Assembly: GCA_029265615.1 (NCBI GenBank) | Contig: JAJUIB010000010.1 | Span: forward strand, 1-64,000 | Direction of reading: 5' to 3' | DNA from: Spirochaetota bacterium | Lineage (GTDB): Bacteria; Spirochaetota; Spirochaetia; Treponematales; Rectinemataceae | Length of the DNA: 64,000 bases | In this document: positions 47,342 through 63,075 of the stretch, in pieces | Layout of the letters: every line of letters begins with the position of its first letter | Numbering within the stretch: the first letter of the stretch is position 1 | The notes under the pieces: model-generated | Told to the model about the DNA's origin: nothing | Databases searched by the model: none | The model's input: only the letters and a program-made list of their open reading frames with translations | Translations under genes and position numbers: made by a program

Positions 47342-48235
47342 TTACCCTTTCTGATCACGTTTGAGCAAAGTCCTCACGGCCTGCGCAAGGAGGGCGGGAT
47401 CGGTGTCGCGCTGCGCGCCACCTAAAGCAGCATCGCCGCCTAAAGCGGCGCGCGCATAACTCCCCGATGCGCTGTCCTCGCGCACCGCGGCAGCCACCTC
47501 GCCGGAGCGCGGCGCCGAGAAACTGTCGGACAAGGCATCGAGGTCCGGAAGCACATCGAGGTCTTCAAGGCCTTCCGCTCGCGCGGCGGCGGGGGGGGTG
47601 GGCGGGACGGCTGCCGCGGATTCCTCCTCGGCGTCGAGGAGACTTGCGGTGCCGAATTCAAAGTCCTCATCCCCTTCGGGCTCGACAAGCGAGGCGGTAA
47701 CAGGCCTGAGTGCCGCACTGCGCGAACTCTCACCGACCCTCACCGCATCCGCAGGGCGCATATCCAGAGCAGGCGCATCCTCCCGGCCCTCTGGCTGAGC
47801 GCCGCGCCCTCCTGCGACGGATGTAGCAGGAGAGGCCGCGCTCCCCGGCTCCTCGCCGGGAAGGACGATGTCGACCGCAGAGCCGGGACGTGGAAATTCG
47901 CCGCGGACGGCGTCATCGTTTGCGGCGTACTCCAGAGACGCCGTGCCACGCGGCGTTTTGGCGTCCGCGGCGTCGCCGTCCGCGGCGTCGCCGTCCGCGG
48001 CGTCGCCGTCCGCGGCGTCGCCGTTCACGGCGTCGCCGTTCACGGCGAACAGCTCGGGGAGGAAGCGCCGCATTGCCCACAGCGCCCCATAGACGAAGGC
48101 ACCGATGACGAGGCCTCCTAGGAGGGCGCGCAGGGCAAGGACGAAGAAGGGGGCGCGGTAGAGCGCGCCGACAATGGCCGACAGCGCCGCAGCCGCCCCG
48201 GAGGCGATGAGCGATGCTCGCAGATCCTTGTCCAC
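47342..48235 (-). CDS. Two-TM protein with pentapeptide-repeat linker, between flhG and whiG
   Basis: 297 residues. GTG 48235 is chosen because GGGGAGG lies seven bases upstream; a GTG 21 bases further up (48256) is the alternative. N-terminal TM helices (LIASGAAAALSAIVGALY; FVLALRALLGGLVIGAFVYG), then a five-residue repeat run G-D-A-A-D (about residues 65-90) encoded by a 15-bp tandem repeat. An acidic, Ala/Ser-rich region follows, with a helical C-terminus (LAQAVRTLLKRDQ). No family recognised. The position between flhG and whiG is occupied by a hypothetical gene in Treponema too. Confidence 0.6.
   Translation of the reverse strand: MDKDLRASLIASGAAAALSAIVGALYRAPFFVLALRALLGGLVIGAFVYGALWAMRRFLPELFAVNGDAVNGDAADGDAADGDAADGDAADAKTPRGTASLEYAANDDAVRGEFPRPGSAVDIVLPGEEPGSAASPATSVAGGRGAQPEGREDAPALDMRPADAVRVGESSRSAALRPVTASLVEPEGDEDFEFGTASLLDAEEESAAAVPPTPPAAARAEGLEDLDVLPDLDALSDSFSAPRSGEVAAAVREDSASGSYARAALGGDAALGGAQRDTDPALLAQAVRTLLKRDQKG
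47963..48047. repeat. 15-bp in-frame tandem repeat inside the flhG-whiG spacer gene
   Basis: Four identical copies of GTCCGCGGCGTCGCC (47963-48022), then a variant copy and a partial copy with GTTCACGG at the start. Each unit encodes five residues on the minus strand, so copy-number change alters the length of the linker without a frameshift. Confidence 0.95.
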
Positions 48236-48312
48236 CGAGGCCCTCCCCCCATTCACTCAAGATTAGGCCGAAATCCGACCAGCCGTCAAGTTCGGCCGCC
48301 CACGCACGAGCC

Positions 48313-59462: not shown

Positions 59463-59563
59463 GCTCTAACCTCCCTCAAGGCCGCGGCGTTGCGCGGCCC
59501 GAAGAGCGCGCGAACCCCGCCCGCCCTCTCACTCCGATTATCGGAAGGGAACGGGTGGACATT

Positions 59564-59569
59564 AGTATA
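59564..59569 (-). promoter_or_regulatory. Possible -10 box upstream of fliL
   Basis: TATACT on the minus strand about 100 bases before the fliL ATG, in the only long gap between motB and fliL. The best -35-like sequence (TTCAAG, 16 bases upstream) is weak, so an internal promoter is only a possibility. Confidence 0.3.
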
Positions 59570-59615
59570 CACAAGCGAAGGCTGACTTGAAAAGCGCCGA
59601 TTGCCGCCTTCAAGC

Positions 59616-59634
59616 CCGCGGCAGAGAACCGCGG
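59616..59634 (-). other. GC-rich hairpin after motB
   Basis: CCGCGG at 59616-59621 and 59629-59634, a palindromic stem with a seven-base loop, 11 bases beyond the motB stop, without a U-tract. Confidence 0.4.
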
Positions 59635-59644
59635 CGGGGGCGTC

Positions 59645-60385: not shown

Positions 60386-61174
60386 CTAGTCCGTCTTGTA
60401 CTTGTCAAGCACCGCTTGCTTCTGCTTCGGCGGCAAATAGCTTGCAAGCCGCACGAGCAGAATGCGCGGGTTGTCGCCCGCCTGGATCGAAAGCACGCCT
60501 TCGATCACCATCTCCTTCACCGTGGTTTCAGCGGCGTCGTCGATAACGAGCTTGCCCATCATCGGCTGGAGGATGAAGTTCGCCATGATAGCGCCGTAGA
60601 AGGTGGTGATGAGGGCGACGGCCATGTTGGGGCCGATGCGGCTCTTGTCCTCGAGGTTCTTCATCATGGCGATGAGGCCGAGAACCGTGCCGAGCATGCC
60701 GAAACCCGGCGCAAGCTTGGACCATGCGTCCACCTGCTTGATGCCCTGGCCGTGCCGCTCGTTCATCTGGGAGAGCTCGTTCTCCATAAGCTCGCGGATG
60801 ACCTCCGCGTCGGTACCGTCGACAACGAGTCTAAGCCCCTGTTGCATGAACTTGTCGTCGAGGTCGTTCATCTCTTCCTCGAGGGATAGGATACCTTCGC
60901 GGCGAGCCTTCTCCGAAAACTCGTAGAGCTTGTCGAGGAGCTTTTCGGCGCCATAGTCGTAGGTCTTAAAGCTGCGACTCAAAAGCTTAAAAACGCCAAG
61001 CGTCTCCTTAAGGCCATACTGGAGCATGAGGGCGAAAAAGGAGCCGCCGACGGTCATGAAAAACGAGGGCGCGTCGACGTAGGTCATGACCGTTCCGCCC
61101 GAGGTGAAGATCGAGAGGAGGATCATGGCGATACCGCCAACAAGTCCGATGAGGCTACCGAGGTTCATGCTCAC
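60386..61174 (-). CDS. motA: Flagellar stator protein MotA
   Basis: 262 residues and four TM helices. Family features: LGSLIGLVGGIAMILLSIF, the cytoplasmic loop with RREGILSLEEEMN containing charged residues that contact FliG, and KLAPGFGMLGTVLGLIAMM with the conserved Pro of TM3. ATGA overlap with flbD. Confidence 0.96.
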   Translation of the reverse strand: MSMNLGSLIGLVGGIAMILLSIFTSGGTVMTYVDAPSFFMTVGGSFFALMLQYGLKETLGVFKLLSRSFKTYDYGAEKLLDKLYEFSEKARREGILSLEEEMNDLDDKFMQQGLRLVVDGTDAEVIRELMENELSQMNERHGQGIKQVDAWSKLAPGFGMLGTVLGLIAMMKNLEDKSRIGPNMAVALITTFYGAIMANFILQPMMGKLVIDDAAETTVKEMVIEGVLSIQAGDNPRILLVRLASYLPPKQKQAVLDKYKTD

Positions 61175-61368
61175 TCCTCGTTCTTGAAGGCCCCGATGCG
61201 GCGTCGATACTCGACGATCCGCGCGATGACCTCCTCGACGCTCTCGAGGACCACATGCCGCTTGCCGCCCAGCATAGCAAGCGTCGTGTCCGGAGTTTTC
61301 TCAATATACTCGATCATGTGCGGGTTTATCCAGAAGGTTTTTCCGGAAAGCTGCGTCAGTTCGATCAT
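61171..61368 (-). CDS. flbD: FlbD-family small flagellar protein
   Basis: 65 residues. IELTQLSGKTFWINPHMIEY and GKRHVVLESVEEVIARIVEY are the two parts of the FlbD family (PF06289) found in spirochaete and Firmicute fla operons. Function unknown; the fixed position between flgE and motA suggests a regulator of stator or hook output. Standard length. Confidence 0.92.
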   Translation of the reverse strand: MIELTQLSGKTFWINPHMIEYIEKTPDTTLAMLGGKRHVVLESVEEVIARIVEYRRRIGAFKNEE

Positions 61369-61398
61369 GCCGCATCCCTCCTCGAAGTTTTACGGCGC

Positions 61399-61458
61399 GG
61401 GGCCTTAGGCGGGGCCTTAGGCGGGGCCTTAAGCGGAGCCTTAAGCGGAGCCTTACGC
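61399..61458. repeat. Five-copy 12-bp tandem array in the flgE-flbD gap
   Basis: Units begin at 61399, 61411, 61423, 61435 and 61447: two copies of GGGGCCTTAGGC, then GGGGCCTTAAGC, GGAGCCTTAAGC and GGAGCCTTACGC. The region does not encode a protein on either strand, and it ends just before a cluster of hairpins. Confidence 0.93.
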
Positions 61459-61488
61459 GGCGACGAAAGCCCGCCTTTAGGGTAGCGC

Positions 61489-61547
61489 CGTGCTAGGCGG
61501 TGCCCTAAAGGGCGGCGTCTAGCACGACTTTAGCTGTTTACGGCTAA
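61489..61547 (-). ncRNA. Candidate structured RNA in the flgE-flbD gap
   Basis: CGTGCTAG (61489-61496) pairs with CTAGCACG (61519-61526). Inside lies GCCC-TAAA-GGGC (61502-61513). A second hairpin TTTAGC (61530-61535) / GCTAAA (61543-61548) follows. No open frame. It may be an intercistronic regulatory or stabilising element for the hook and motor genes. Confidence 0.4.
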
Positions 61548-61572
61548 AACCCCAGGTCAGCCCGCCTTAAGC

Positions 61573-62967
61573 CTAGCGCTTGAGCGTCAGGAGCTCCTGG
61601 AGCATCTGGTCACTTGTCTGGATTGTCTTCGAGTTCGCCTGGAAGCCGCGCTGGGTGACGATCATGTCGGTGAACTGCTCGGAGAGATCGACGTTCGACA
61701 TTTCGAGCGTTCCCGCGATGAGCTTGCCCTTGCCGGCGATGCCCGAGGGGCCGATGTTCGCCATACCGGAGTTGTTCGACTGCACGAAATTTGTCTCGCC
61801 GATCTTTTCAAGTCCGTTCGGATTCGTAAAGCTCGCGAGGGCCATCTGGCCGATCGTGCGGTTCGACCCGTTCGAGTAGACGGCCGTGATGATGCCCTGT
61901 TGGTCGATCTTGAAGGAGTCGAGGTAGCCCATTGTGTAGCCATCCTGGGCAAAGACCTTCGTCGAAGAGCGCTCGGCCTGCTGCGTCACCGTGTTGGTTG
62001 CGGAACCGACCGTGCCGAGGGCGATGCGGAAGGTCTGCCTCGTGGGCGCGCCGCCCGCCCCGGCTGTTGCGCCCGCAACGTCGAAGGAGACGCCGATGTC
62101 GAGGGCCCCGGTCTCGGGCGAGAGTCCACCCTGCCCGTCCGCGACACGGCGGAGAAGACCGCGGTTGTCGAATTCAACCTGAAAGGCGTTCGCGTTGCCC
62201 GCCGCAGGCTCGCCGAGCGAGACGGCCGTGTTGGTCGGCGTGGCGGCCTCGGGATCGACGGTAACCGTTGCGTTCCAACGATTCGTCTCGCCCGCCGCCT
62301 TGCGGAACTCGATGCGGAGGATATGCGCCTCGCCAAAGGCATCGTAGACTTTCTCCTCGACGCGCCAGGTGCCCCGCTCGACTGTGTCCTCGCCGGCGCC
62401 TTCGGGGATCTCGGGCGTCCGCTTGTCGAGGTTGCAGGCCAGTTCGACACGGCTCGTCGCCTTCGCAGGATCCTTCGAGCCCACGGGGATAACAAGGTCC
62501 TCAAGCTGGCCGGAGGTCGAGAGCACTTCCTTGCCATTGACGGTTTTTGCGAGCCAACCCTGAACCCTAAGGCCCGAGCCCGGGTTAACGAGACGGCCAT
62601 CGCGGTCAATGCCGAAGGCGCCCGCGCGAGTGTACATCGTCTGCTCGCCCTTTTTGAGGACGAAGAAGCCGTTCCCCTGGATGGCGAGATCGGTCATCAC
62701 GCCGGTCGTCTGGAGCGCACCCTGGGTGTGCACCGTGTCGACCGAGGCGATCGACATGCCAAGGCCGATCTCTTTGGGATTGACGCCGCCCACCTCGGCA
62801 TTCGGCCGCGAGGCGCCCGACATCTGCTGGTAGAGAAGGTCTTGGAAGTTGACCCTCCCTTTTTTGAAGCCCGTCGTGTTGACGTTGGCGATGTTGTTGC
62901 CAAGAACGTCCATCCGGACCTGATGGTTCTGGAGGCCGGCGACGCCGGAATACAGTGATCGCATCAT
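61573..62967 (-). CDS. flgE: Flagellar hook protein FlgE
   Basis: 464 residues. N-terminal Flg_bb_rod motif [21 protein letters not shown]1 region, hook FlgE domain and the C-terminal helix ([20 protein letters not shown]). Lys165 (GSKDPAK) and Cys178-Asn179 (ELACNLDK) match the residues of the inter-subunit lysinoalanine crosslink that stiffens spirochaete hooks. ATG 62967 gives this exact numbering. One of the clearest spirochaete markers in the window. Confidence 0.97.
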
Positions 62968-63045
62968 AGGGCAAGCCCTCCTCGAGCTTCCCGGCGGAAT
63001 GAGCTCTCAAGGAAGCGCATTCCGCTTCGGGACCATATCGTCAAG

Positions 63046-63072
63046 GGCCGCGGGGGAGCTCCCCCGACGGCC
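63046..63072 (-). other. Palindromic hairpin between flgD and flgE
   Basis: CGGGGGAGCTCCCCCG (63051-63066) is a 16-base perfect palindrome, flanked by GGCCG (63046-63050) and CGGCC (63068-63072) with one bulged base. It lies just past the flgD stop and has no U-tract. Confidence 0.6.
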
Positions 63073-63075
63073 GCA

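Follow-up and report, generated by a model that had tools for sequence, protein, structure and literature searches.

Hairpins that are unrelated in sequence recur across a spirochaete order at one junction of the flagellar operon, between the hook protein gene flgE and flbD. In the genome described here, this junction is a 204-nt untranslated intercistronic spacer (61369..61572, minus strand) that carries hairpins and a tandem array, a combination matched in no relative of the family. We put it near an even chance that the spacer works as an intercistronic stem-loop, marking where the hook-gene (flgE) part of the message has its 3' boundary.

The spacer in its operon

The window (the whole 64,000-nt stretch of DNA analysed) is part of a 2.7-Mb genome (G000, contig C45) from the spirochaete order that holds Treponema. 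Its minus-strand flagellar operon includes, in this region, flgD, flgE, flbD, motA, motB, fliL and fliM. The upstream neighbor of the spacer is flgE (61573..62967, minus strand; Pfam FlgE_D2 and Flg_bbr_C), which ends at 61573; the first gene past it is the swrD-like flbD (61171..61368, minus strand; Pfam FlbD, E 1.3e-26), which starts at 61368 and is followed by motA and motB. An earlier sequence-only reading had placed the gap exactly, and it was right that the 204 nt lack a frame and that most gaps in the operon are under 20 nt; no frame started by ATG, GTG or TTG lies on the coding strand of the gap. Other long gaps in the same genome are flgD-flgE (108 nt), motB-fliL (182 nt) and fliL-fliM (66 nt). 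Genes for Rho and PNPase are present in the genome. In T. denticola, flgE and motB have been described as belonging to one operon (PMC6930189), and a literature search found no paper on the subject of the flgE-flbD junction.

Two of the other long gaps have features of their own. The flgD-flgE gap (62968-63075) folds well (z -2.9) and holds the perfect palindrome GGGGGAGCTCCCCC, so that flgE is hairpin-flanked on both sides in this genome. Within the motB-fliL gap (59463-59644), the sequence GCTTGTGTATACTAATG around 59570 resembles an extended -10 element, and a TGnTATAAT-like site just past the motB stop codon occurs in about 15% of the genomes tested. This pattern suggests that some lineages have a putative promoter inside the operon, ahead of fliL.

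Hairpins and a tandem array within the spacer

Read in the gene direction from the flgE stop codon, the spacer consists of a 13-nt arm, hairpin C, hairpin A, the overlapping hairpin B, the tandem array, the Shine-Dalgarno-like sequence GAGGAGGG of flbD (61376..61383, as read from the sequence) and the flbD ATG, all on the minus strand. The arm (GCTTAAGGCGGGC, 61560..61572) starts at the first base past the stop codon and is complementary to the array units (-19.4 kcal/mol). It is predicted to be paired with the array with a probability of 0.9-1.0 at all positions but one, and 27 of 1969 other 13-mers from the operon (1.4%) equal or beat this pairing. Hairpin C (61529..61548) is a weak 6-bp stem (-3.7 kcal/mol). 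Hairpin A (61489..61526) is a nested structure of 8+2+4 bp with the loop TTTA (-21.4 kcal/mol), and hairpin B (61474..61511; 9+4 bp, -20.3 kcal/mol) overlaps it. The two have nearly equal energies when each is considered alone, and B excludes A as a nested structure; B and the outer stem of A could together form a pseudoknot. When the whole gap is folded, the predicted ensemble gives A a probability of about 1 and B of about 0. The nested stem (outer 8 bp, inner 4 bp) and the second, 6-bp hairpin of the sequence-only reading are both real, the latter being the weak hairpin C; hairpin B and the arm had been overlooked.

Hairpin A alone folds better than all of 300 shuffles (z -5.2), for a 42-mer picked after the structure had been seen. 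A stem scoring at least as high as B arises in 2 of 300 shuffles of the remaining, non-array sequence. The gap as a whole folds no better than its shuffles (z -0.86 for the sense and -1.0 for the antisense strand), because GC-rich sequence folds well regardless, and its 60-nt local folding minimum is unexceptional (p 0.35). With a whole-gap z of about -1, the query sequence by itself therefore proves little.

The tandem array (61397-61460) has a period of 12, 5.3 copies and 94% matches, and its TRF score of 93 is the second highest in the window. Its five 12-bp units (61397..61456, minus strand) read, in order on the coding strand, GTAAGGCTCCGC, TTAAGGCTCCGC, TTAAGGCCCCGC, CTAAGGCCCCGC and CTAAGGCCCCGC; unit by unit, the sequence therefore drifts stepwise, just as had been described. 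The array is beyond chance: its self-match at period 12 is 49/52, against a best value of 29 among 100 dinucleotide shuffles (periods 5-40). A genome search for the 12-bp unit, as the sequence-only reading had proposed, finds a single locus. The array is absent from the relatives compared, and weak matches elsewhere are short GC-rich stretches, mostly inside open frames. It is most likely a young slippage expansion.

Two other repeats were seen along the way. The window contains a 15-bp repeat of 5.7 copies at 47962-48047, inside a 304-aa open reading frame (47342-48256, minus strand), where it encodes a GDAAD/NGDAV pentapeptide repeat. In a member of the family (L203:877-937, G017:C93), a 12-bp repeat reads KAPSKAPSKAPS in one open frame and resembles one frame of the untranslated array described here; the likeness is probably a coincidence of GC-rich repeats.

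Several known kinds of element were sought in the spacer. The coding strand of the gap contains no open reading frame of at least 40 aa with a usual start, and no Rfam 15 family matches (best score 18.4 bits, against a gathering threshold of 37). There is no terminator-like site in the region, the 8 nt that follow the local structure have no more than 1 T, and an intrinsic transcription terminator was rejected for the query hairpin for lack of a T-tract. No promoter-like site was found inside the gap. A conserved internal promoter after flgE was also rejected, since TGnTATAAT occurs just past the stop codon only in genera g16 and g22, as was a dispersed palindromic repeat (REP/MITE-like), since the query gap is single copy in its genome.

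The same junction across the order

The comparison covered 100 flbD regions from the order plus 40 from elsewhere in the phylum. Gaps were measured between orthologous neighbors, with starts placed by alignment, so that lengths are approximate. The flgE-flbD gap has a median of 84 nt and is the longest among the directly adjacent junctions measured, compared to -8 to 25 nt for most neighbors and 51 nt for motB-fliL. For gaps of 40-300 nt, folding energy was compared to that of 100 dinucleotide shuffles and averaged by genus. The median genus z is -3.39 for flgE-flbD (42 genera) versus -0.82 for the operons' other gaps (52 genera; Mann-Whitney p=1.4e-8). This treats genera as independent, an approximation, though almost all of them appear to have gap sequences unrelated to those of the others. 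Paired within genus, the flgE-flbD gap is the more negative in 28 of 36 genera (p=1e-5). Among length-matched gaps of 60-200 nt, 79% versus 25% have a z below -2 (Fisher p=8e-9), and the contrast is similar in three bins of low, middle and high GC. Strong local hairpins are found in 63% of flgE-flbD gaps, versus 12-15% in the other long gaps, motB-fliL and fliL-fliM. The trend weakens outside the order, where it is seen in 50% of 16 flgE-flbD gaps.

The recurrence is one of position. The hairpins differ from genus to genus and have no sequence homology, and the gaps cannot be aligned between genera; the gap of a congener of the query is 75 nt long, with an unrelated hairpin. The one alignable set compiled for covariation, three g23 genomes, concerns a dispersed repeat and was left out of the evidence. 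In 14 of 59 genera all gaps are short (under 40 nt) and lack such a hairpin; g16, g24, g29 and g47 each include a species with a short gap and another with a long one, and in several genera the gap is bare when short and mostly carries a hairpin when long. The hairpin element is therefore dispensable. Where the genes are linked, 7 of 52 hairpins are followed by 5 T in 8, and most lack a T-tract. Selection on RNA only was rejected as a conclusion: the sense strand is favored over the antisense in 83% of cases, no more than in the control gaps (80%), and the energy difference between the two strands equals that of the controls.

Some of the relatives' hairpins have recognizable sources. Genus g23 (L049, L146, L200) carries palindromic repeats of about 130 bp, a family made up of ACGGTAA/ACGGTGG units that has dozens of matches in genome G040, some full and some partial; one copy lies exactly between flgE and flbD, and this gap hairpin is one of 47 matches, full-length or partial. 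Parts of the G004 gap hairpin are also found in a CACAGAG palindrome family that is scattered through G004 and G002, and part of the G041 gap hairpin recurs elsewhere in its genome. Palindromes of the CACAGAG type lie just downstream of flgE at L067, L140, L232, L236 and L237, in two separate families (f1 and f3), which suggests that this kind of repeat has been captured more than once. When the genera with known or suspected dispersed repeats (g3, g4, g23 and g24) are removed, 70% of the remaining 46 gaps still have a z below -2.

In the large genus g25 (L210-L239), the genomes examined have the gene order interrupted at precisely the flgE-flbD junction. Here the 100 nt that follow flgE have a z below -2 for 90% of 30 flgE genes, and flgE is mostly followed by an intrinsic terminator, with a hairpin and T-run in most.

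A model for the junction

On the simplest account of these data, RNA segments tend to end with flgE, at a terminator when the gene stands alone and at a U-less hairpin when flbD-motA-motB follow. In the proposed mechanism, RNA polymerase would read through flgE into flbD-motA-motB, and a stable hairpin (A or the alternative B) would block 3'-5' exonucleases and/or cause partial termination; the step might thus be protection, partial Rho-dependent termination, or both. The post-stop arm could pair with one array unit, possibly closing the base of the hairpin, a suggestion drawn from one sequence. Hook and stator messages could then differ in amount or lifetime. If the array has a function, it might offer several registers for the closing helix and might distance the hairpin from the flbD ribosome-binding site.

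The interpretation in the sequence-only reading is partly supported. One of its possibilities was a processing or attenuation site, which might set the ratio of hook to stator, and the comparison lends support to such a site: a stable hairpin recurs at the junction in many genera, far above the other gaps in the same operons, and a separated flgE is mostly followed by an intrinsic terminator. Its two other suggestions, a repeated protein-binding site and a new small RNA, fared less well. Together they are very improbable. The 12-bp units are regular and the spacer is structured and untranslated, but 12 bp is near and not equal to a helical turn, the array is confined to one locus and missing from relatives, and a small RNA would lack a promoter, a terminator and any Rfam match near the gathering score.

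A bistable switch or attenuator, in which A and B (or the pseudoknot) control read-through into flbD-motAB, is improbable, though somewhat less so. Perhaps it would be coupled to translation of the end of flgE, where ribosomes would cover the arm. The near-equal, mutually exclusive hairpins, the rarity of the stem B score among shuffles and the start of the arm directly past the stop codon are what one might expect of such a device, but the whole-gap ensemble is given over to A, there is no T-tract, and the arrangement was not seen in relatives. A frame through the array, which reads KAPLKAPLKAPPKAPPKAP, raises the further idea of a translated remnant, a basic KAPLKAPP-repeat peptide ATGA-coupled to flbD. 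Its 54 open codons end in an ATGA that overlaps the flbD start, but the frame was rejected because it has no ATG, GTG or TTG, and it is found in no relative; we regard this idea as scarcely credible.

The serious competitor, a real possibility, is a neutral and tolerant spacer in which palindromic repeats and slippage arrays pile up without any RNA function. This would fit the unrelated sequences, the variable presence of the hairpin within genera, the slippage-like array, and dispersed palindrome copies that could have settled neutrally in g23 and G004. Against it, strong local hairpins are several-fold rarer in the long motB-fliL and fliL-fliM gaps, and the excess of structure persists without the four repeat-bearing genera. 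The neutral explanation nonetheless keeps substantial weight, because the query gap is no more structured than its own shuffles, many genera are hairpin-free, some of the repeats are of mobile type, and there is no strand difference beyond controls.

A broader reading may be entertained, somewhat more tentatively: that the boundary between hook and stator genes has been rebuilt repeatedly, order-wide, from unrelated palindromes, the hairpin being selected and its sequence free. The palindromes would come from captured repeats, old terminators and inverted repeats beside slippage arrays. Such a function would be conserved by position only and would uncouple the hook message from the stator message in bacteria whose motility control is thought to be largely post-transcriptional. 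Dozens of genera have a hairpin at this one junction, which makes it a concrete place to seek differential hook and stator expression, and homology searches can miss an operon element that is kept by position only. The array of the query genome is probably of local interest.

Relation to known systems

In differentially decaying operons of E. coli, U-less hairpins after a favored 5' gene protect against 3'-5' decay, and the malE-malF intercistronic stem-loop is the classic case (Dar & Sorek 2018, PMC5927463). The query spacer likewise has a hairpin with no U-tract directly after an upstream operon gene; hairpin A is stable when taken alone, the gap as a whole folds no better than its shuffles, and the signal is strong across relatives. 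It departs from malE-malF in that its sequence is not shared even between genera and that it has the 12-bp array in addition. Some gap hairpins of relatives are copies of REP/MITE-like spirochaete families, whereas the query gap is not repeated in its own genome. The Treponema-type flgE terminators of g25 resemble the query in that a hairpin lies no more than 100 nt past the stop codon of flgE; most of these have a T-run and are no longer followed by flbD, whereas the query hairpin lacks a T-tract and flbD comes next.
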